Positions 527 to 38,316 of a stretch of DNA of 41,518 nucleotides are shown piece by piece. Below the pieces are notes generated by a model. It ran no database searches. It saw nothing but the letters and a program-made list of their open reading frames with translations, and had not been told where the DNA came from. Position 1 is the stretch's first letter. Each line of letters opens with the position of its first letter. This DNA is from a virus: positions 1 through 41,518 of IMG/VR virus record IMGVR_UViG_3300046535_000845. One strand, 5' to 3'. The position numbers were made by a program, and so were the translations under genes.

Positions 527-659
527 GACATACGCTCAACAGTTCGCCAGTAAGGGCGGTAAAGCTCGAGCCGCTAAACTCTCGAAGAATCAACAAGTTG
601 AGATAGCCAAGCTAGCCGCGGCCGCTCGCTGGGCAGGACATACTAAAAAGACTACTTGA
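501..659 (+). CDS. Small basic KGGKARA-type protein
   Basis: A 52-residue Lys/Ala-rich protein beginning inside the 3' end of the HNH gene. Residues 16-45 follow the pattern SKGGKARAAKLS...IAKLAAAARW, a motif I recognise from many small phage and bacterial proteins that are assumed to bind nucleic acid; no enzymatic function is known to me. It is too short for most gene callers, but the overlap and the conserved motif support it. Its TGA lies within the -35 hexamer of the promoter that follows. Confidence 0.6.
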   Translation: MKTQTNSHKTYAQQFASKGGKARAAKLSKNQQVEIAKLAAAARWAGHTKKTT

Positions 660-684
660 CATGCTTGCCTGCATGGACTAGAGT
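656..684 (+). promoter_or_regulatory. Sigma70-like promoter of the early small-gene operon
   Basis: Perfect -35 TTGACA (656-661), 17-base spacer, -10 TAGAGT (679-684, 4/6 matches). It lies just upstream of the first hairpin leader and the 743 gene, so it probably drives the whole 743-2788 cluster. Confidence 0.6.
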
Positions 685-709
685 TAGACCAGTAAGCAAT
701 ACCGCTTAC

Positions 710-740
710 CCTCTGCACTGCCGAAAGGCGAAGTGAGGAC
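710..740 (+). promoter_or_regulatory. SD-sequestering leader hairpin, copy A
   Basis: First of five copies of a 31-34 base element placed 2-3 bases before a start codon. It folds as CCTC / TGC bulge / ACT / GCC stem / GAAA loop / GGC stem / GA / AGT / GAGG. The final GAGG is the SD of the 743 gene and pairs with the CCTC at the 5' end. See the finding on the hairpin family. Confidence 0.75.
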
Positions 741-742
741 AC

Positions 743-973
743 ATGGTAATCACAGCGACGTCCGGCCCGTTCACTCTCACGTTTCACTCGTCTGGACATT
801 CCTATCCGCTCACGTCTGAAGAAGCGCAACGGTTGATTGATAGTTATCCTGCTCATACCGCAACACGCAACCGCGTCGTTCTAGTTGGTCACAACAGCTC
901 ACACGCATACGACCGCACAACAATCCGCCCTGCCACTCTAGGCGGGGGACCAGCTTTTATCATTTCCCGTTAA
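743..973 (+). CDS. Small hypothetical protein under hairpin A
   Basis: A 76-residue protein that I do not recognise. The ATG lies 3 bases after the conserved GTGAGGAC ribosome-binding element of hairpin A. It is Ser/Thr-rich in the first half with no cysteine pairs, signal peptide or membrane segment. It is the first gene after the TTGACA promoter and is followed after 1 base by hairpin B, so it is part of an array of early genes with matching leaders. Confidence 0.65.
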   Translation: MVITATSGPFTLTFHSSGHSYPLTSEEAQRLIDSYPAHTATRNRVVLVGHNSSHAYDRTTIRPATLGGGPAFIISR

Positions 974-974
974 T

Positions 975-1007
975 CCTCTGCACTGCTCGTAAGAGCGAAG
1001 TGAGGAC
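975..1007 (+). promoter_or_regulatory. SD-sequestering leader hairpin, copy B
   Basis: Same element as copy A, but the apical stem is GCTC/GAGC closed by a GTAA loop. Both strands of the stem have changed together compared with copies A and C. CCTC (975-978) can pair with the SD GAGG. Confidence 0.75.
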
Positions 1008-1010
1008 ACA

Positions 1011-1229
1011 ATGAAATACACCGATTACGTTAGAACGCTTCGTCAGAGCATCATTGCCGCAACTAAGCACGCTAAATCAAACGGCACGGACGCGATGAGC
1101 GAATCTAATCTCCAGCAGATTACACACTTCCCGCTCGGTGCCGCTAACGCTTATATGGCCAACCAAGCCTTTCGGGAAGCACTCCAGTTCACCATTGACA
1201 ACGATTTGCTTGCAATCCGTATCTATTAA
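1011..1229 (+). CDS. Small hypothetical protein under hairpin B
   Basis: A 72-residue soluble, probably helical protein. The start is fixed by hairpin B (GAGGACACA then ATG). I do not recognise the family; the N-terminus has KYTDYVRTLRQSI and there are no cysteines. The stop (TAA) is immediately followed by hairpin C. Confidence 0.65.
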   Translation: MKYTDYVRTLRQSIIAATKHAKSNGTDAMSESNLQQITHFPLGAANAYMANQAFREALQFTIDNDLLAIRIY

Positions 1230-1230
1230 C

Positions 1231-1261
1231 CCTCTGCACTGCCGAAAGGCGAAGTGAGGAC
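1231..1261 (+). promoter_or_regulatory. SD-sequestering leader hairpin, copy C
   Basis: Identical in its core to copy A: GCC-GAAA-GGC apical stem, CCTC pairing with GAGG. It lies 3 bases before ATG 1265. Confidence 0.75.
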
Positions 1262-1264
1262 CAC

Positions 1265-1477
1265 ATGAAATTATCAACGCTCAAAAAACAAGCGCAAGGT
1301 GCGACGACATGGCGCGGCCATCGGATCGTCTGGGGGCAGGCATACGGCCGCGCAAACGGTCCCCAGTCACTAAACGGACAGTGTCGAAAATGTGGCGCGT
1401 ATGTCTTTCTAGTTGAGCACCCGAACAGTATCGGCGTCTCAGGCTTGGCCGTCGCGGTAAATTGCGATAACCGTTAA
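1265..1477 (+). CDS. Small phage protein with one CxxC motif
   Basis: A 70-residue protein under hairpin C. The pattern TTWRGHRIVWG...CRKCGAYV...GVSGLAVAVNC matches a small protein type I recognise from phages and plasmids, with a single CxxC plus a C-terminal Cys that could form a zinc site. Function unknown. The TAA runs directly into hairpin D. Confidence 0.65.
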   Translation: MKLSTLKKQAQGATTWRGHRIVWGQAYGRANGPQSLNGQCRKCGAYVFLVEHPNSIGVSGLAVAVNCDNR

Positions 1478-1478
1478 C

Positions 1479-1512
1479 CCTCTGCACTGGCCGAATAGGC
1501 TGAAGTGAGGAC
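1479..1512 (+). promoter_or_regulatory. SD-sequestering leader hairpin, copy D
   Basis: Apical stem GGCC/GGCT (one G-U pair) around a GAATA loop. The outer CCTC...GAGG pairing and the TGC and GA internal loops are kept. It lies 3 bases before ATG 1516. Confidence 0.72.
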
Positions 1513-1515
1513 ATC

Positions 1516-1830
1516 ATGAAGTGTGAATGCTGCGGACAAACGATCAAGGTCGCCAAGGTTCTAACCATCGTAACCGATACCCTCTCGCTCTCCACGGCTG
1601 ACGCGTACGCCTACTTCAAAAAGACGGCTCCAGTCGAAGATGCAAAGTTTTTGCTTCGGTCGCCACTGCTCACTGACGCCATGCGAGGCGAACTCGAATC
1701 ACTAATCGCAAGGCCACCGGCACGCGCTGAGTTCTACCGTCGATACATCAACATACAGGATGCTTGGCGCCAGCGTTCGAACGAAGCAGAGCGAATCGAC
1801 AACCTGTCAGCAGTGAATGAGGCAGCCTAA
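1516..1830 (+). CDS. Small protein with N-terminal CxCCG zinc-binding motif
   Basis: A 104-residue protein starting MKCECCGQTIKVAKV, a half zinc knuckle, followed by a helical, charged body rich in Arg and Glu. The start follows hairpin D. The partner cysteines for a full zinc ribbon are absent. Its 3' end carries a GAGG that serves as the SD of the next gene, which has no hairpin of its own, so the two are probably translated together. Confidence 0.6.
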   Translation: MKCECCGQTIKVAKVLTIVTDTLSLSTADAYAYFKKTAPVEDAKFLLRSPLLTDAMRGELESLIARPPARAEFYRRYINIQDAWRQRSNEAERIDNLSAVNEAA

Positions 1831-1831
1831 C

Positions 1832-2029
1832 ATGGAAACCACAACACCTACCTCATATCGTTTTACGTTTCGCTTCGTCGGCTGCCTCGCTGGCGCTATC
1901 GGCTTGCACTATCCGATTGAGGCGACCAGAACGGCCGAAACACAAGAACAAGCCGAATTGATGCTGTACGACAAATACGACCATATCCAGCGTCTGTATC
2001 TGTTGCACGCGGAACCCGTCAACCGTTAA
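1832..2029 (+). CDS. Small hypothetical protein coupled to 1516 gene
   Basis: A 65-residue protein. I chose ATG 1832, 1 base after the TAA of the previous gene and 9 bases after GAGG at 1819-1822; an in-frame ATG at 1817 has no SD. It is the only gene of the 743-2469 array without its own hairpin. Family not recognised; no cysteine pairs. Confidence 0.6.
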   Translation: METTTPTSYRFTFRFVGCLAGAIGLHYPIEATRTAETQEQAELMLYDKYDHIQRLYLLHAEPVNR

Positions 2030-2030
2030 C

Positions 2031-2064
2031 CCTCTGCACTGCCCGATACGGGCGAAGTGAGGAC
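2031..2064 (+). promoter_or_regulatory. SD-sequestering leader hairpin, copy E
   Basis: Apical stem GCCC/GGGC around GATAC, again changed on both strands relative to copy A. CCTC...GAGG outer pairing kept. It lies 3 bases before ATG 2068. Confidence 0.75.
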
Positions 2065-2067
2065 AGC

Positions 2068-2469
2068 ATGAGTAACGACAAACGCTATAACGGTTGGACG
2101 AACTACGAGACGTGGAACCTTGCCTTGTGGCTAGGCAATGACTCAGGCTCGTACGATTACTGGCAAGAACAAACCCAGGAAGCCTATAAGAACGCTGACA
2201 GTTCTCGCTCGTTCACCAAGCGAGAACAAGCCGCGTTAGACCTTGCGGACATACTTGAAGCTGAGATCGAGGAACAAGCGCCAGAAGTAACAGGGTTCTA
2301 CGCGGACATCCTATCTGCCGCCATGTCAGAAGTGAACTACCACGAGATCGCCGAGCATTGGCTAGACGATGCCGATCTGATAGACGAGTGCGAGTTATGC
2401 GGAGAACCAGCCGGTGAGGGTAATGCACTCTGCCCTGCCTGCCAAACAGAAGCAGAGACAAATGCCTAA
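2068..2469 (+). CDS. NGWTNYETWN-type phage/plasmid protein (DUF7249-like)
   Basis: A 133-residue acidic protein. The N-terminal block (residues 7-24) NGWTNYETWNLALWLGND is the hallmark of a widespread protein of unknown function found in phages and conjugative plasmids. The C-terminal 30 residues add a CxxC...CxxC zinc ribbon (CELCGEP...CPACQTE), so this version carries an extra metal site. It is expressed under hairpin E and overlaps the RHH gene by 8 bases. Confidence 0.8.
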   Translation: MSNDKRYNGWTNYETWNLALWLGNDSGSYDYWQEQTQEAYKNADSSRSFTKREQAALDLADILEAEIEEQAPEVTGFYADILSAAMSEVNYHEIAEHWLDDADLIDECELCGEPAGEGNALCPACQTEAETNA

Positions 2470-2605
2470 GCAGTTGACCAGTTATACCCTCCGACAGATC
2501 GATTCGGATCTGTGGCGTCAAGTGAAAGGAAAGGCTGCCCTCGAAGGGCAGTCTATCCGAGCATTAATTGAATCCCTTTTGCGTGCATGGTTGAAACAGA
2601 GGTAA
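2462..2605 (+). CDS. Ribbon-helix-helix (Arc/CopG-like) DNA-binding protein
   Basis: A 47-residue protein with the RHH layout: a short beta strand (TSYTLRQID), helix A (DLWRQVKGKAALEG), then helix B (SIRALIESLLRAWLKQ). Such proteins bind operators as dimers. ATG 2462 is preferred over the upstream in-frame ATG 2414, because the extra residues would lie inside the previous coding region and do not fit the fold. Free-standing, with no toxin gene next to it, so a phage transcription regulator is more likely than an antitoxin. Confidence 0.75.
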   Translation: MPKQLTSYTLRQIDSDLWRQVKGKAALEGQSIRALIESLLRAWLKQR

Positions 2606-2611: not shown

Positions 2612-2788
2612 ATGAAGAAAACGTATCGAGTCGAACGCACAGAACTACATACGCGCGTCTTTTTCGTAGAAGCGGACAACGAAGACGACGCGCTAGACAT
2701 CTACTTCGATGAAGAGGAAGACGATAACGAGTCTTTCCACGGCGGGACGCCAGACGTACGAATCGTAGAACGTGAGCCAGTCGGTTGA
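2612..2788 (+). CDS. Small acidic protein, DpnD/PcfM-like
   Basis: A 58-residue, strongly acidic protein; the middle carries EADNEDDALDIYFDEEEDD. The layout (short beta strand, VEADNEDDAL helix, C-terminal strand) resembles the small DpnD/PcfM family, but this is a pattern match only. SD AGAGG 9 bases before the ATG. The gene sits exactly between two identical 20-bp repeats, so recombination between them would remove it cleanly. Confidence 0.65.
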   Translation: MKKTYRVERTELHTRVFFVEADNEDDALDIYFDEEEDDNESFHGGTPDVRIVEREPVG

Positions 2789-12275: not shown

Positions 12276-13265
12276 TTACGACTCGGTGTTGAACACCACG
12301 CCGAGACGGCGGGAGTTATCCGTGATGAGGTTGCAGATGGTCAGCACCTTGAACACATCGAAGAAGCCATCGGTCGGACGGATGGCGGCTTCGCCCTTCA
12401 TGTACTGCATGTACACGATCCGCAGATTGCGGTTGTTCAGGATGTAGATGGACGACGCCGTGCAGGCCGGGTCGTACACGAACGGGATGTCCTTGAACAT
12501 GATGTTCTGGCCCTTGTAGGCGCGGAGTCCCTTGTCATTCGTGCTCGTGCGGTCGATGCGCTCAAGTGCCTGGATGGTGCCTTCGTACCCTTCGAAGTTG
12601 GTCTGCGTCCCGATGGCGAACGTGGGATTCTGCGAGCCGACGCCGTTGCTGCACGAGTTGTACACGTTCGTCATGGAGGCGACGAGATTGTCAAACTTCA
12701 CGGAGTTCTTCGTGCCATCCTTCGTCTGCGAGCGCCAGAACGAATAGGTCGCCCGGTTGATCAGGCCCACGCTGCCCGTCGTCGGATCCGAGGGACACAA
12801 CAGTTTCAGACCACCCACGGACTTGGACGAGAAGGACGTGCCATCTCCGAACATCGCGAGGTTGATGGAGTCCTCGACCGAGTTTTTCATGTTCTCGATT
12901 TTGCGCGACTCGAGGTCGAACTTCTTCGCGCCGCCCGACGTGATGCCCCGCTCGAAATCCGTCATGGGGACATCGCAGCCGATGAACTTCCACGAATACT
13001 CGCAGTTATCGAAGGTGTCCGGGCGGGAGACGGTTAGCGTCTCCAGTTCCGACATCCACTTGACGTTGGGGTTCTGCGCCCATTCGATGTTGGAGCGAAT
13101 CACGGTGCCGTGCTGTTCCTCCCACGACCCGTTACTCCGGAGTTCTTCCAGAATCGCGTGGCGCGGGAAGATGTTATCGACGGGATCCTGGGGCGTGTAG
13201 GCTTCCCACGCCGCTGCGACGTTCTGCCCAGAGGTCTGAGCGGTGCCTGGTGCGGTAAGAGGCAT
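12276..13265 (-). CDS. Major capsid protein (HK97-type)
   Basis: A 329-residue protein in the usual place after the scaffold gene. Features shared with phage major capsid proteins include the segment around residues 120-190 (ENMKNSVEDSINLAMFGDG, GGLKLL, INRATYSFWRSQ) and a C-terminal beta region ending NLITDNSRRLGVVFNTES. SD AAAGGA. Expected to assemble the head shell around the scaffold protein encoded immediately upstream. Confidence 0.8.
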   Translation of the reverse strand: MPLTAPGTAQTSGQNVAAAWEAYTPQDPVDNIFPRHAILEELRSNGSWEEQHGTVIRSNIEWAQNPNVKWMSELETLTVSRPDTFDNCEYSWKFIGCDVPMTDFERGITSGGAKKFDLESRKIENMKNSVEDSINLAMFGDGTSFSSKSVGGLKLLCPSDPTTGSVGLINRATYSFWRSQTKDGTKNSVKFDNLVASMTNVYNSCSNGVGSQNPTFAIGTQTNFEGYEGTIQALERIDRTSTNDKGLRAYKGQNIMFKDIPFVYDPACTASSIYILNNRNLRIVYMQYMKGEAAIRPTDGFFDVFKVLTICNLITDNSRRLGVVFNTES

Positions 13266-22181: not shown

Positions 22182-22925
22182 TCAGTACGACACGATCGTG
22201 GAACGCCAGCCCTGCGGAATCGGATCCCCGATCGGAGACTTCCATTCCAGTGCCACGGCGATCACGCCGCTCCCGGCGACTTTGAAGGATGCGCCGACGA
22301 TCGAGAAATCGATTTGTGACGTCCCTGTCCAACTCATCGTCTTCGGGCCGCCCCCCGTCAAGGCATAGGCCATCCCAGGATTCTCCCCGCCGGGATCGGA
22401 TGGATTCCGCACCCACGGACTGACGGCACCAGGCGTGGCTGGATTGCCCACCATGATATTCACGAAGAGATCGTCGCTGCTGGAGCAGGGAATGACCATG
22501 GATCCAGCGGTGGCTTGGCCGCTACTGATCGCGAAGGTGCCGGCCGCCGCCGTGCCATTGGCCTGGGTGCTGCCATCGAATGCCGCCGTCCCGCTGGGTG
22601 GCGCAAATTCCATCGCCTGGATGGACCGGACGTCCGCACTGCCGCCATTCACAAAATGGAGATCGGCCGTATCGCCGCCCACCACGAGCCGATAAAACAA
22701 CATCACGCTCCCACGATTGATCTTGACACTCGGTGAGGCAGACGGCTCTGCGTAGAGCGTAGAGTTGCCGTCGATCACCGAATACCCTGGCGTGGGAGCG
22801 ACGTTGTTGACCGTATCTCGAAAATGGACACCAGCAGCCACCACATTACCGACCGTGGGTGTCGCGCCCAGCGTCACATCGAAGGCGAAATCTGCAAAGC
22901 CGCTCTGCACGAGGGTCCACGCCAT
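22182..22925 (-). CDS. Appendage beta protein with LEWxxPxGDxxPQGxR tail
   Basis: A 247-residue protein; ATG 22925 follows the TAA of the big IPT/TIG gene by 1 base. Beta-rich with Gly/Ser/Ala-rich linkers (for example QANGTAAAGTFAISSGQ). The C-terminus ALEWKSPIGDPIPQGWRS matches the C-terminal motif of the 261-residue neighbour, which suggests a common attachment or assembly signal. Function otherwise unknown. Confidence 0.6.
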   Translation of the reverse strand: MAWTLVQSGFADFAFDVTLGATPTVGNVVAAGVHFRDTVNNVAPTPGYSVIDGNSTLYAEPSASPSVKINRGSVMLFYRLVVGGDTADLHFVNGGSADVRSIQAMEFAPPSGTAAFDGSTQANGTAAAGTFAISSGQATAGSMVIPCSSSDDLFVNIMVGNPATPGAVSPWVRNPSDPGGENPGMAYALTGGGPKTMSWTGTSQIDFSIVGASFKVAGSGVIAVALEWKSPIGDPIPQGWRSTIVSY

Positions 22926-22926
22926 G

Positions 22927-25900
22927 TTATTGCTCGAAGGCGCCCTGATCGAACGCCGTGCCCTGCGGCCGGGTCGTGCCCACAATGTCGCAATTGCCGG
23001 TGCCACTGAGACACGTCGTCGGCACGACGACCCCCGTATTCAACGCGGGACTGCCCGCCTGGAGATGAAAATCCGTGGGCGCGTTGACGAAGAGCGGATT
23101 CGCGGCAAAGACATTCGGCGTGGTTGACCCAGAGCTCGATCCGTTATTGACGAAGGTGACGCCGCCCGCGCCGACTTGATAGGCGATGTTGTTCCGCACC
23201 ACCGTGCCGGACGCGCCAGCCTCGACGTGGATGCCGTCGATTTGCGGTCCCATATTGTAGACGGTGTTGTTGTAGACGAGCGTGTTGACTCCGGTATAGA
23301 CGTAGATACCGGCCCCAAAGATATTCGGCCCGAAGGGGGCGCTGATGTTGTAGACGATGTTGTTATAGACCTGATTGCCCGTGCCGAGGCTGCTCGCCAC
23401 CATGACGCCAATCATGCGGAACGGATCCAACGCCGTCCCCGCGTCACCGGGCAGCGTGATGTCATGAATGATGTTGTTCCTGACGATGTTGCGCGAGGCG
23501 TAATCCGCCATGCCGTCCTGCGCGTATTGATTGTAGATTTGAATGGCAAAACCGCGCTCATTGTGGAGATTGCAATTCTCGATGATGTTGTCGCTGGCGT
23601 TGATGTAGAACGAATACGCCAGGTCGCCGGCATCGCCGCCGCCGTGCATGTCGAGATTGATGAACTCGTTAAACCCGATGGCGCCAAATGTCGAGGCCGT
23701 CACGATGATGCCAATCGGCCCCCCGCCCGTGCTCTGATTCGGAATGCCGTCGCTCCCGGTGATGATCTCCGCATTCTGGATCCGGATATGGCCGGGGAAT
23801 CCGCTCCCGACAAACGTCTCGATCTTGACGCCCCATTGATTGCCAGAGGCGTTGCGCGAATCCATGTTCAGCCCGTCGAGTTCGATATAGTTCTCGTTGG
23901 CTTGGAAATCCACCACGTCAGAGGAGAACGTGCCTGGGCGGAGCCAGACCACCTCGCCAGGATAGTTGGCGATCCGGATCTTCGCGTTCCACGAGGTGCC
24001 AGAGGGAGACGCATTCAGCGCCTCGTTGTAGTAGACGGGGCTGGCCGTCGTGCCCCCACGCAGGAGCACTTGGCTATTCGGCACGGCACACGTCAAGGCG
24101 CCCTGCGCGCCCGTCAGCGTCTGCTTCGGGGTATTGATATTCTGTGCCAGCGTGCAGGTATTTGAATCGTTGCCGGATGGTGACACATAGAACGTCAATA
24201 CCGCGCCCGTCACGGTAAAGGTGATGCTGTTGCTCTGGACGCCTCCGACAGTCACGCGCACGGGTCCAGTCGTCGCCGCAACCGGGACGGTCGTCGTAAT
24301 GGATGTCGCGGACCACGCGGTGGCGGTGGCCGTCGTCGCATTGAATTGCACCGTGCTCGCGCCTTGGGTCGCGCCGAAATTGGTCCCAGTCAGAATCACT
24401 TGGGTGCCGGTCGGCCCAGAGGTCGTACTGAGGCTCGTCAACGTCGGATTCCCCACAGAAAACGCAATCCCATTCGATTGGACACTATTTACGGTGACGG
24501 TGACATTGCCGGACGTCGCGCCCGCTGGCACCGTCGTCGTGATGGACGTCAAGCTCCAGGCTGTGACGGTGGCCGTCGTCGTCCCAAACTTCACGATGGA
24601 CGCATTCTGACGAGATCCCCAACTGCTGCCGGTCAACGTGACGGTCGTGCCCACGGGGCCTTGCGTCGTGCTGAGACTCGTCAACGTCGGACTGCCCTGC
24701 AAAGGGTGCGGATATTGATAGGAGCTATAGCCAGGCTTCGCGGTACTGGTGCTGGTAAAGAAATCCCGACCGGCGTGGACGCGAGCCGCCGTCGCGCCGC
24801 CAGGCCCAATCGAGTCGAAGATACTCCAGACTAGATCGGCGCCATTGATCTTGTTATTCCAGAAGTAGGCCGGATCGCTCGTTTGTGAGGCGGTGGGATA
24901 GGGCGGCGGAAACCCATTGAACGGGGTGGGATCCGTGGAGCGGCCGATCTGGTCAATGCAGGGCCACCCCGTGGCGTCCTGATTCCCGTCAAATGGTGAG
25001 GCCCCATTGCAGAGGCCGAAAGAATTCGGCCCATCATCGACATAGGCACGTTGATAGGTCAGCGTGCCCGTATTCCCCCCAAACGTGCCAGTCCAGGTGT
25101 TGTTATAGATGACGCCCGTGCCGCCATTGATGATGGCGACTGAACTGACCGTCAGCGCCGATTGCGTGAAGATGTTGTCGTAAATTTCCCACTTCCGACA
25201 GCCACGGAAATATCCGCGCGGCGTGTGGGCTTCTGGGTAGGATTCGTGGACCGTATTGTCGCGGAAGACGTATTCCCCAGACTCTTGGCAGTCCACCGTG
25301 TTGCCAAAGCTGAGGAAGGTAAACGTGTTGTCTTCGGCATAGACCGCATTCGGCCCACCGAGGCCTAGTGGCTCCGACCACAACGTCGCCCCGTTCTGCT
25401 CCACGAGATCGCCGGATGCCCATCGCTCGATCAGCACCCGTTGGTCGGTGAAGGTGTTGTTATCAATCAATCCATTCAGGGGAGCCGTGCCCCCATTGAG
25501 GCCCGACACGTTGGTATTATTCGCCCAGACCGCTGTGCCATAGACGGCGTAGTTGAGTTGATTGCACGTAAAGTTGTTGTGATGAATGCGCCAGCCAGGG
25601 CCGTTCGTGCGAATGTTCGCGCAGATAAACGTGAACCCAGAAATATCGGCCCCCGCAAACTTCCCGGTCACAATGGTGGACGTGCCGCCTGGCCCAGTAC
25701 CCAGATTGGCCGTGGCGTCAATAATCGTTTGACCCACGCCCGCCCCTTGCAATTTGAGGCTTCGGGTCGCGCCAGTCGTATCCAGTTGCTGGCCTTGAGT
25801 CCAGACGCAAGTCCCTGCTGGCACGGTGACGATCGTCGCTCCGTTATTGATCGCCGTCGTTTCAGCCGCGACGAGTTCCGCCCACGAACAACCCGTCGCA

Positions 25901-27021
25901 GGAACGGAATTCACCCCCGTGACGGTAAACGTGATCCCATTCGAGGCATTCCCCCCCACGATGACTTGCACCACGCCCGTCGTCGCATTGGCCGGAACCG
26001 TCACCGTAATGGACGTGGCTGACCAACTTGAGGCTGTCGCGGCCGTCCCGAAGAACGTCACCAACGACGTCCCTTGTGTGGTCCCAAAGTTGGTGCCCGT
26101 GAGCACCACGGTCGATCCGACCGGCCCGCTGGTGATGCTGAGACTGGTCAACACTGGAGCAGGGGCCGTCACCGTAAACGTGATCGCATTGGACGGAAAG
26201 CCCCCGACCGTCACGATGACGTTTCCTGACGTGGCACCAGCTGGGACGGTGACAGTGACTGATGATGCGGCCCAACTCGAGGCCGTCGCTGCCGTGCCGT
26301 TAAAGGTGACGGTACTCGCGCCCTGTGTAGCGCCAAAGGTTGTCCCAGTCAACACCACGGTGGTGCCAACGTTCCCACTCGTCACACTCAGACTTTGCAG
26401 TTGGGGTGTCACGCTGAAGGTGAGGCCATTCGACGTCCCACCAAGCGTCGTGAGGCGAATGAGGCCGGTCGTCGCCGCTGCGGGGATGGTGATGGCGACT
26501 GAGATATTCGCCCAACTCGTCACGGCGGCAGTCACGCCGTTCACCGCGACCGTTGATGTCCCTTGGGTATTACCGAAATTCGTGCCGGTGAGCACAACAC
26601 CCGTCCCGATGGGGCCGTTCGTGAGACTGAGCCCGGTGAGCGTCGGCACGGGCAATTGCACCGTAAAGGTGATCGCGTTGCTGGTATTGCCGGCGACTTG
26701 CACCGTGACCGGACCCGTCGTCGCCCCAACGGGGACTGTCGTCGTGATGGAGGTATTCGACCAGGCGGTGGGCGTGGCGACCGTCCCGTTGAACCGTACG
26801 ACGCTCGTGCCCTGGACAGTGCTAAACGTCGTGCCGGTGATAATGACCGTGGTGCCCACCGGCCCGACTGTGACCGATAAATTCTGGATGAGCGGCGGCG
26901 TCAATCCGCCGATGACCACAGGATTACCAGGCGGCTGTGGCGCTTGCGCGAGCACCACGAGGGTGCTGAGCACCAGCCAGAGGGCGGCGACGACTTTACA
27001 CGAGCGGGACCGTAAATTCAT
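22927..27021 (-). CDS. Giant IPT/TIG and beta-helix protein with signal peptide
   Basis: A 1364-residue protein. ATG 27021 gives a classic Sec signal peptide (MNLRSRSCKVVAALWLVLST...VLAQA, residues 1-26). Then come four IPT/TIG beta-sandwich domains (about 44-122, 126-205, 207-285, 289-368), a parallel beta-helix (about 372-775), two more IPT/TIG domains (778-855, 859-938) and a second beta-helix (940-1364). The beta-helices look like those of polysaccharide lyases and tailspikes. A signal peptide is unusual for a virion protein, so it may be secreted or displayed on the host, or recently taken from a bacterial surface-protein gene. Confidence 0.75.
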   Translation of the reverse strand: MNLRSRSCKVVAALWLVLSTLVVLAQAPQPPGNPVVIGGLTPPLIQNLSVTVGPVGTTVIITGTTFSTVQGTSVVRFNGTVATPTAWSNTSITTTVPVGATTGPVTVQVAGNTSNAITFTVQLPVPTLTGLSLTNGPIGTGVVLTGTNFGNTQGTSTVAVNGVTAAVTSWANISVAITIPAAATTGLIRLTTLGGTSNGLTFSVTPQLQSLSVTSGNVGTTVVLTGTTFGATQGASTVTFNGTAATASSWAASSVTVTVPAGATSGNVIVTVGGFPSNAITFTVTAPAPVLTSLSITSGPVGSTVVLTGTNFGTTQGTSLVTFFGTAATASSWSATSITVTVPANATTGVVQVIVGGNASNGITFTVTGVNSVPATGCSWAELVAAETTAINNGATIVTVPAGTCVWTQGQQLDTTGATRSLKLQGAGVGQTIIDATANLGTGPGGTSTIVTGKFAGADISGFTFICANIRTNGPGWRIHHNNFTCNQLNYAVYGTAVWANNTNVSGLNGGTAPLNGLIDNNTFTDQRVLIERWASGDLVEQNGATLWSEPLGLGGPNAVYAEDNTFTFLSFGNTVDCQESGEYVFRDNTVHESYPEAHTPRGYFRGCRKWEIYDNIFTQSALTVSSVAIINGGTGVIYNNTWTGTFGGNTGTLTYQRAYVDDGPNSFGLCNGASPFDGNQDATGWPCIDQIGRSTDPTPFNGFPPPYPTASQTSDPAYFWNNKINGADLVWSIFDSIGPGGATAARVHAGRDFFTSTSTAKPGYSSYQYPHPLQGSPTLTSLSTTQGPVGTTVTLTGSSWGSRQNASIVKFGTTTATVTAWSLTSITTTVPAGATSGNVTVTVNSVQSNGIAFSVGNPTLTSLSTTSGPTGTQVILTGTNFGATQGASTVQFNATTATATAWSATSITTTVPVAATTGPVRVTVGGVQSNSITFTVTGAVLTFYVSPSGNDSNTCTLAQNINTPKQTLTGAQGALTCAVPNSQVLLRGGTTASPVYYNEALNASPSGTSWNAKIRIANYPGEVVWLRPGTFSSDVVDFQANENYIELDGLNMDSRNASGNQWGVKIETFVGSGFPGHIRIQNAEIITGSDGIPNQSTGGGPIGIIVTASTFGAIGFNEFINLDMHGGGDAGDLAYSFYINASDNIIENCNLHNERGFAIQIYNQYAQDGMADYASRNIVRNNIIHDITLPGDAGTALDPFRMIGVMVASSLGTGNQVYNNIVYNISAPFGPNIFGAGIYVYTGVNTLVYNNTVYNMGPQIDGIHVEAGASGTVVRNNIAYQVGAGGVTFVNNGSSSGSTTPNVFAANPLFVNAPTDFHLQAGSPALNTGVVVPTTCLSGTGNCDIVGTTRPQGTAFDQGAFEQ

Positions 27022-27313
27022 TAGACATCCCTGACACGGTGATCCCGGTCGGTAACGTGGTGGCGACCATGAGGTGATAATTCCCCGCCGCGAGCGCATT
27101 GAACACAGATGCCAGATGGACGGTGATGGTCCCATTCGTCGGAGCGGGCGTTCCCACGTTCTGCGAGGCGACCACCGGATCGCTCGTCCCCCCGGCAAAG
27201 ATCACCACTTGATAATTCGAGGCCGTGGGCGAGGCCGCAAAGGAGACATCGCCCTTGATGGCCACGGGCGGCTTCGGATGGCGTTTATTAGACAAGCGGG
27301 ACCGTGAAGGCAT
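26996..27313 (-). CDS. Small beta-sandwich protein, paralogue 1
   Basis: About 105 residues with an Ig-like/fibronectin-like pattern (IKGDVSFAAS...NYQVVIFAGG...NYHLMVATTLPTG...SNEFTVPLV). It is clearly paralogous to the next protein upstream; both end in FTVPLV. ATG 27313 is chosen to match the paralogue length, though an in-frame ATG 27322 or a TTG nearer the upstream stop is possible. Overlaps the signal-peptide start of the giant gene. Confidence 0.55.
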   Translation of the reverse strand: MPSRSRLSNKRHPKPPVAIKGDVSFAASPTASNYQVVIFAGGTSDPVVASQNVGTPAPTNGTITVHLASVFNALAAGNYHLMVATTLPTGITVSGMSNEFTVPLV

Positions 27314-27611
27314 TGGACACATTCGACTGCGTGGTGCCTGCAGGCGTCGTCACGGCCACGATCGCGTCATAGTTCCCAGGCGGGAGCGCATTGAGCATGA
27401 CCTGAATGTTGACCGTGATGACCCCCAATTCGTTCGGGTTTGGGACGAGAAGATTCTGGGTCGCGAGCACCGGAGAGAGCGTCCCCGCCGCGAAGACCCG
27501 GACCTGATAGTTCGTCGCCGCCGCGTGGTCGGACGACGCTTTGAAGATCAGATCCCCTTTCGATTGGACCGTCGTCGGGATGTTGAAGACGATGTAGCTG
27601 TCAACGATCAT
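27288..27611 (-). CDS. Small beta-sandwich protein, paralogue 2
   Basis: A 107-residue protein with the same strand order as its neighbour (SKGDLIFKASSD, NYQVRVFAAG, GNYDAIVAVTTPAG, NAFTVPLV). The pair probably arose by tandem duplication. Likely a small appendage or adhesion module; no catalytic motif. Confidence 0.62.
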   Translation of the reverse strand: MIVDSYIVFNIPTTVQSKGDLIFKASSDHAAATNYQVRVFAAGTLSPVLATQNLLVPNPNELGVITVNIQVMLNALPPGNYDAIVAVTTPAGTTQSNVSNAFTVPLV

Positions 27612-27945
27612 CCACGGTGCTCACGACAATACCGGACGGCAGCACCTTCCAGCGCGGATCCTTGTCGTATTCGTCACGTTTGCGGTTCACCTCGTCCTCG
27701 AATGGGATACAGGAGTACGTCTTATTGGTGAACTGGCCCGTGACCTGCTTCTGGCGAGCCTCGCACGCCGGTTGGCCGCAGAGAAATCCGTTACACTTCA
27801 GACACCACCCACGGCGCGTACCAGATCCCGGTCGATATTCCCAGGTCGCCTGACAGTGACAGCACTGCCGCGTTTCGCCCTGAATCTTCTGACCGTCCTT
27901 CGTGGCGGTTTCAAAGTAGCCGTTCGGGCGATAGCCGGTGATCAC
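27601..27945 (-). CDS. Zinc-finger phage protein
   Basis: A 114-residue protein starting with GTG 27945 (GTGA overlap). Residues 26-62 contain a treble-clef-like cluster CCHCQATWEYRPG...WCLKCNGFLCGQPAC, with several CxxC pairs. I recognise this arrangement from phages of soil and plant bacteria; role unknown. It is placed among virion genes, so it may be a structural or assembly factor. Confidence 0.65.
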   Translation of the reverse strand: MITGYRPNGYFETATKDGQKIQGETRQCCHCQATWEYRPGSGTRRGWCLKCNGFLCGQPACEARQKQVTGQFTNKTYSCIPFEDEVNRKRDEYDKDPRWKVLPSGIVVSTVDDR

Positions 27946-28190
27946 GACACCGCAACGATGATGCCGGGATCGAAGGTGATCGCTTCTTCCGGGTCGCCGT
28001 TCTCGGTTGGCCAGCGATTCAGATGGACGCCGGGATCATCGCCGTTCATCATGCGATGCCGCAGCGTCGGACAATCGTACCCGCAGTATTCCGCTTGGCC
28101 CGTGGAGAGATTCAGACTGCCACACGCTGTCCCCGTGTAATGCAGTGTAGCCAGAATCTTATCGAGCCTGTCGTGATTCGCTAAGGCCAC
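27942..28190 (-). CDS. Hypothetical 82-residue protein
   Basis: Starts with GTG 28190. It contains the cysteines in GTACGSLNL and YCGYDCPTLRHRMM and has an acidic C-terminal half. It overlaps the HNH gene by 32 bases. No family recognised. Confidence 0.5.
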   Translation of the reverse strand: MALANHDRLDKILATLHYTGTACGSLNLSTGQAEYCGYDCPTLRHRMMNGDDPGVHLNRWPTENGDPEEAITFDPGIIVAVS

Positions 28191-38103: not shown

Positions 38104-38199
38104 GCGACGAACGTGAAGGCGACCATACCTGGGTGGCATGGGGGCTGTGGAAATCTTCTCTGGGAGCCTTCTATGCGGTTTGTACTGAATTGAGGACAT

Positions 38200-38316
38200 A
38201 TGACGCCCTGTGTGATGTGCCAGCAGACCGGCAAGATGGTCACGCGGGGGCCGGATGAGCAGTCCTGGTGGTGTCTCCCGTGTCTGCGGGCCTGGTTCAA
38301 GGATTTCCTGTCATGA
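38200..38316 (+). CDS. Small zinc-ribbon protein
   Basis: A 38-residue protein (MTPCVMCQQTGKMVTRGP ... WWCLPCLRAWF) with two CxxC pairs, probably one zinc ribbon. SD GAGG in TTGAGGACATATG. The 96 bases between 38104 and 38199 hold no credible gene. ATGA overlap with the next gene. Confidence 0.6.
   Translation: MTPCVMCQQTGKMVTRGPDEQSWWCLPCLRAWFKDFLS

Follow-up and report, generated by a model that had tools for sequence, protein, structure and literature searches.

A 31–34 nt element stands directly before five ATG start codons within a single operon of small phage genes, and comparison of its copies with one another and with a homolog in a related phage supports an RNA hairpin that is conserved as a structure and is predicted to carry the Shine–Dalgarno (SD) sequence in its 3′ arm. 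With moderate confidence we favor the interpretation that this element is a cis-acting translational gate that sequesters the SD, that upstream translation opens the internal copies, and that a factor, if one is involved, acts on the copy at the operon head. The direct basis of this interpretation is the sequence, the fold prediction, the homolog, a rule of one element per entry site and the geometry of the upstream stop codons; from these we infer sequestration in vivo, opening by a terminating ribosome and the action of any factor.

The window, by which we mean the whole stretch of 41,518 bases analyzed, is an IMG/VR viral record, and the operon lies on its plus strand within the first 2.9 kb. 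The features of the operon are as follows.

656–684, plus strand: predicted promoter TTGACA-17-TAGAGT (agrees with the consensus at 10 of 12 positions; by chance the region should contain about one such sequence)
692–709, plus strand: leader hairpin GTAAGC-AATACC-GCTTAC, directly 5′ of element 1
710–740, plus strand: element 1, apical stem GCC/GGC, loop GAAA; operon head, before ATG 743
743–973, plus strand: gene A, 76 aa, no family
975–1007, plus strand: element 2, apical stem GCTC/GAGC, loop GTAA; upstream TAA (971–973) ends 1 nt 5′
1011–1229, plus strand: gene B, 72 aa, no family
1231–1261, plus strand: element 3, same sequence as element 1; upstream TAA (1227–1229) ends 1 nt 5′
1265–1477, plus strand: gene C, 70 aa, CxxC motif, no family
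1479–1512, plus strand: element 4, apical stem GGCC/GGCT including a G-U pair, loop GAATA; upstream TAA (1475–1477) ends 1 nt 5′
1516–1830, plus strand: gene D, 104 aa, Cys-rich N-terminus, no family
1832–2029, plus strand: gene E, 65 aa; start abuts the gene D stop (TAAcATG); no element
2031–2064, plus strand: element 5, apical stem GCCC(G)/(C)GGGC; upstream TAA (2027–2029) ends 1 nt 5′
2068–2469, plus strand: gene F, DUF7249 (PF23907, E 1.8e-10; phrog_871)
2462–2605, plus strand: gene G, ribbon-helix-helix (RHH), Arc-like; overlaps the gene F stop (ATGCCTAA); no element
2612–2788, plus strand: gene H, 58 aa; plain SD, predicted open (unpaired 0.73); no element
2832–2862, unstranded: strong hairpin between the operon and the structural genes that run toward it (convergent sets)

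The assignment of gene G comes from a match to phrog_6506 (E 3.2e-4) when the protein was scanned from a longer GTG start; its match to PF01402 (E 0.006) is below the family cut-off. The hairpin at 2832–2862 is likely a terminator. An 18-nt sequence, TTGAAACAGAGGTAAACA, occurs twice near the end of the operon, at 2591–2608 in the ribosome-binding region of the 2612 gene and at 2785–2802 with no gene after it, and may be what is left of a gene that was duplicated or lost, which would fit a shuffling, within this operon, of units made up of a ribosome-binding site and a gene. Elsewhere in the window, a minus-strand open reading frame of 1423 aa (22927–27198) in which six IPT/TIG stretches were matched (PF01833) possibly encodes a surface or tail adhesin.

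A search of the window for the exact arms CCTCTGCACTG and GAAGTGAGGAC returned five matches against 0.00 expected from 100 shuffles, all on the plus strand and all 2–3 nt before an ATG (743, 1011, 1265, 1516 and 2068), just as a sequence-only reading of this DNA had reported. The full pattern is CCTCTGCACT-N(10-13)-GAAGTGAGGAC, with the layout CCTC-TGC-ACTG...GA-AGT-GAGG-AC, and the gap from the end of the element to the ATG is 2 nt for element 1 and 3 nt for elements 2–5. That reading had spoken of five covarying hairpins; since elements 1 and 3 are identical, there are four distinct variants. An identity of 21 nt precedes elements 4 and 5. With two mismatches allowed per arm no further copies above chance were found in the window, nor did either arm alone recur above chance elsewhere in it. 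The sequence GAATTGAGGACATATG at 38187–38202 resembles the right arm of the element and lies before another small Cys-rich gene; it has neither a left arm nor a hairpin.

The positions of the copies follow a simple rule. From the promoter to the RHH gene, the element is present at all five independent entry sites, and the two starts without it, at 1832 and 2462, abut or overlap the preceding stop codon and for this reason are probably translationally coupled; the predicted fold upstream of gene E is unremarkable (z +0.98). The claim that only the 1832 gene lacks the element had to be corrected, as genes G (RHH, at 2462) and H (at 2612) lack it too.

In thermodynamic predictions all five copies fold alone, at −11.9, −14.1, −11.9, −12.2 and −15.5 kcal/mol for elements 1 to 5, and their folds beat most shuffles (z −1.6 to −2.8). 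The plan of the hairpin is a CCUC/GAGG helix, a 3-nt bulge, an ACU/AGU helix, a GA bulge and then a free-form apical stem, and in every copy the GAGG SD is predicted to sit in the 3′ arm paired with CCUC. An alternative middle section in the minimum-energy fold (GC/GU plus a 2×2 loop) leaves this SD clamp unchanged. When longer sequence context is included, the probability that GAGG is unpaired is 0.00–0.06 for elements 2–5 and 0.31 for element 1, for which a competing fold is predicted; the leader hairpin and element 1 taken together (690–745) fold with a z of −3.90. Pairing of the SD with the 16S rRNA tail, at approximately −5.9 kcal/mol, is weaker than the hairpin.

Two lines of evidence from the variable part of the element suggest that it has been kept as RNA. 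First, the apical stem contains two pairs with double compensatory changes (each in one copy) and one G-U pair, and it is 3, 4, 4 or 5 pairs long among the window variants. When the variable inserts were shuffled, the probability of closing a stem of the observed length was 0.002–0.018 for each, with a product of 3.6e-11 over five distinct inserts (four from the window and one from the related phage), and control structures slid along the alignment paired 31–40% of cells vs 96% for the real structure. Second, the G-U pairs of element 4 and of the homolog suit the mRNA strand; on the complement they would give A-C mismatches. The lower helix (CCTC/GAGG and ACT/AGT) is invariant across the window copies and, because it shows no covariation, the pairing of the SD clamp rests on complementarity and energy. 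Of the structural claims made earlier, then, covarying stems can be upheld for the apex and not for the lower helix, which never varies; selection of the RNA as structure stands, given folds in all copies and a homolog with a different apical stem; and so does the pairing of GAGG with CCTC, GAGG being predicted mostly paired.

A search with the major capsid protein of the window (12276–13265, phrog_9953) yielded two relatives at 66–68% identity, and an alignment of the three sequences then found more. One relative, IMGVR_UViG_3300027882_000013 (hereafter G003; capsid protein 66% identical), carries a single homologous element, CCGTTAACCTCGACACTGAGCGCCGCAAGCGCTTGAAAGTGAGGCCCGCAATG, directly after a promoter-like TTGACA-17-TATATT that occupies the same place as the predicted promoter of the window. 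The apical stem has been rebuilt to AGCGC/GCGCT plus a G-U pair, the bulge is GAC vs TGC in the window, and the 3′ bulge is longer by one A. CCTC, CACTG and AAGTGAGG are retained, and no copy in either phage departs from CACU/AGUG. The G003 hairpin is modestly better than its shuffles (z −1.02). A covariance model built from the window copies placed the G003 site first in that part of the contig (9.8 bits, E 0.21) with filters off and missed it with default filters and, because this score is weak, homology of the element rests on sequence and position rather than on the model.

Both phages have an HNH gene upstream and an RHH gene downstream, the latter with the same overlapping start and stop (NTGCCTAA), and on these sequence comparisons the two operons are plausibly homologous. 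The small proteins encoded just upstream of the promoter gave no alignment between window and G003, and we therefore claim no synteny there; in searches with the G003 operon genes only G003 itself matched. The placement rule extends to G003: the element is found at its one independent entry site, that of the first gene. Each later gene as far as the RHH gene overlaps the stop before it and is without an element; one of these later genes appears frame-shifted in the contig. Between the −35 and −10 of the G003 operon promoter there is also a perfect palindrome, CTACAGCGCTGTAG (1061–1074 in the reverse complement of 22801–28026), which is likely an operator for a repressor, perhaps the RHH protein that this operon encodes.

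The geometry of the stop codons suggests how the internal copies could be opened. At elements 2–5 the upstream UAA ends exactly 1 nt before CCTC and lies 35–38 nt from the next ATG, and when the RNA was modelled as blocked through 9 nt past the stop the accessibility of GAGG at these four elements rose to 0.56–0.76. A ribosome terminating there would cover one arm of the hairpin, as coupling by RNA unfolding requires; this does not apply to element 1 or to the G003 copy. Coupling alone cannot be the whole function, because these two copies stand at operon heads with no preceding cistron. The sequence CCGTTAA is also conserved ahead of the G003 hairpin, with no recognized gene ending in it, and from this it may be that the upstream stop in the window comes from the element.

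Under the gate interpretation, the closed hairpin would hold the GAGG ribosome-binding site and keep initiation low, a ribosome terminating at the upstream UAA would cover CCUC and free the SD at the four internal copies, and translation of each gene would thereby license the next. Since no ribosome arrives from upstream at the head copies of the window and G003, the gate there would have to be set by a trans-acting factor or be a fixed valve with a low rate. The points against the gate are the absence of covariation in the lower helix, the head copies, which an upstream ribosome could not open, the competing fold of element 1 and the weak hairpin and model scores in G003.

A possible, though not probable, alternative is that the element is a trans-acting operator in which a phage or host RNA-binding protein reads the lower helix and bulges (CACUG...GAAGUG) and switches the five cistrons jointly, either as a repressor or as an activator like Mu Com. 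The two readings are compatible. What favors an operator is the identity of CACU/AGUG throughout both phages, although compensatory changes would preserve the fold, together with the single G003 copy at an operon head, the presence of the element on all uncoupled entry sites and the small Cys-rich proteins encoded in both operons. However, no binding protein was identified, none of the small proteins tested matched the Com family, and identity within the window may equally reflect recent copying. A Com site as such was rejected, as the GAG(N)2CC loop motif of Com is absent from the loops of the element. We regard equally tentatively the broader proposal of a phage translational regulon, in which one trans-acting RNA-binding factor would act on every entry site of the early operon and the array would be conserved in structure between phages.

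The remaining explanations fit worse than the gate. An mRNA processing or stability hairpin, for instance a site cut by RNase III or a protective stem at the 5′ side giving each cistron its own 5′ end, would account for a stem whose bulges are fixed and which occurs between consecutive genes once per translation unit, but seems improbable. Its 10–12 pairs are broken by two bulges, which is short for RNase III; cleavage would usually destroy the entry site, whose SD is within the stem; and stability alone leaves the fixed spacing of 2–3 nt to the ATG unexplained. Quite doubtful is a DNA-level repeat (an operator, a recombination site or a gene-cassette boundary) lying over start sites by coincidence. 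The 21-nt identity before elements 4 and 5, the unrelated genes between copies, which suggest that element and gene move together, and the ribosome-binding stretch duplicated at 2591 and 2785 speak for it. Yet the spacing between the arms varies from 10 to 17 nt and one arm carries a 3-nt insertion, which is easier to reconcile with an RNA hairpin than with a DNA site bound by a dimer; the G-U pairs are strand-specific, the distance to the ATG is fixed, and six of six copies have the same orientation. Integron attC sites are 57–141 bp long with a GTTRRRY core at the right end; the element has no such core (its right end is GTGAGGAC) and totals 31–37 nt. The core of CsrA/RsmA sites, A(N)GGA, usually lies in a hairpin loop; in the element GG is part of the stem, and the G003 homolog no longer has GGA (GAGGCC). 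An N4-type hairpin promoter was set aside because no virion RNA polymerase was seen and the element abuts the ATG, and a REP element was considered and rejected. Least probable of all is an RNA thermosensor, one of the functions first suggested for a hairpin that sequesters the SD, as the predicted opening of GAGG does not rise above 0.10 between 25 and 50 °C and no Rfam thermometer matched.

The covariance-model search of phage metagenomes proposed with the sequence-only reading was carried out in part; by pattern it turned up the G003 homolog before an ATG and no other phage copy in IMG/VR. Across all IMG/VR contigs the exact pattern gave one chance match, inside an integrase gene, and a relaxed pattern gave ten loci, the one in G003 being the only one that is followed by an ATG and forms a fitting hairpin. 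Searched with patterns of this sensitivity, the 2.9 million IMG/VR contigs yield the element in two phages only. Nine matches to the pattern plus ATG in GTDB genomes include none with both a hairpin and a convincing gene start, and blastn of the element against INPHARED phages and PLSDB plasmids returned chance pieces only. No such leader was found at 80 DUF7249 loci, and the other capsid relatives showed neither the element, by regular expression or covariance model, nor a repeated SD hairpin. Searches with the small open reading frames of the window and its 720-aa structural open reading frame found no relatives in IMG/VR, and no Rfam covariance model matched the window up to E 1. Two other repeats were noted along the way: contig L029 (5390–5800) has a short leader repeat, AACAAGCG...AGAAGGGATAATATGAAAAA, before three consecutive small genes with no evident hairpin, and contig L061 has four copies of GGAACTTT...TAGTATAATAAGTAA (1887, 2101, 3179 and 5786) that are probably a repeated phage promoter.

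The closest known phenomenon is the SAS/ESAS system of cluster K mycobacteriophages. The SAS, described in 2011, is a 13-bp SD-bearing repeat (GGGATAGGAGCCC) before the starts of many unrelated small genes; it sometimes contains the upstream stop codon and has no assigned function, and the ESAS inverted repeats upstream of it reportedly change in ways that give no support for mRNA pairing (PMC3203893). Like the SAS, our element repeats directly 5′ of the starts of unrelated genes in one orientation (five of five on the plus strand, 2–3 nt before the ATG). Unlike it, the sequence CCTCTGCACTG...GAAGTGAGGAC does not match the 13-bp consensus and, in contrast to the SAS, which has no hairpin, and to the ESAS, the arms pair in all copies, the SD forms the 3′ arm and the apical changes are compensatory.

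Phage Mu com/mom has a translation inhibition structure whose activator is a small zinc-finger protein (PMC6483171), and its initiation signals lie in an inhibitory RNA structure within a phage operon, as is predicted for the element; its single site, the GUG start in the stem and GAG(N)2CC in the neighboring loop have no counterpart here. Coupling by RNA unfolding is known from MS2 coat–lysis, f1 VII–IX and E. coli rpmI–rplT (PMC12548453), and the element likewise has a predicted SD-hiding structure downstream of a stop codon placed as that model requires; those cases each have a structure unique to one pair of genes, whereas the conserved module described here recurs at several junctions and at the operon head. 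In T4, RegA/RegB act as one control system on the initiation regions of many phage genes, RegA sites being A+U-rich and unstructured and RegB cutting GGAG with inhibition by structure (PMC3014915), whereas GAGG of the element lies within a stem. In the general sense of an SD predicted to be paired in a local hairpin, the element is an SD-sequestering hairpin.

Structures that hide the SD are well known singly in phages; the use of one conserved module five times in a row is unusual. Phage operons of tiny genes without assigned function are common, and how the dose and order of their products are controlled is poorly understood. If the gate interpretation is true, placing a reusable SD-sequestering module at each entry site would be a natural way to chain translation or to switch it jointly. 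The element is also a hairpin equivalent of the start-associated repeats of mycobacteriophages, which have long gone unexplained.
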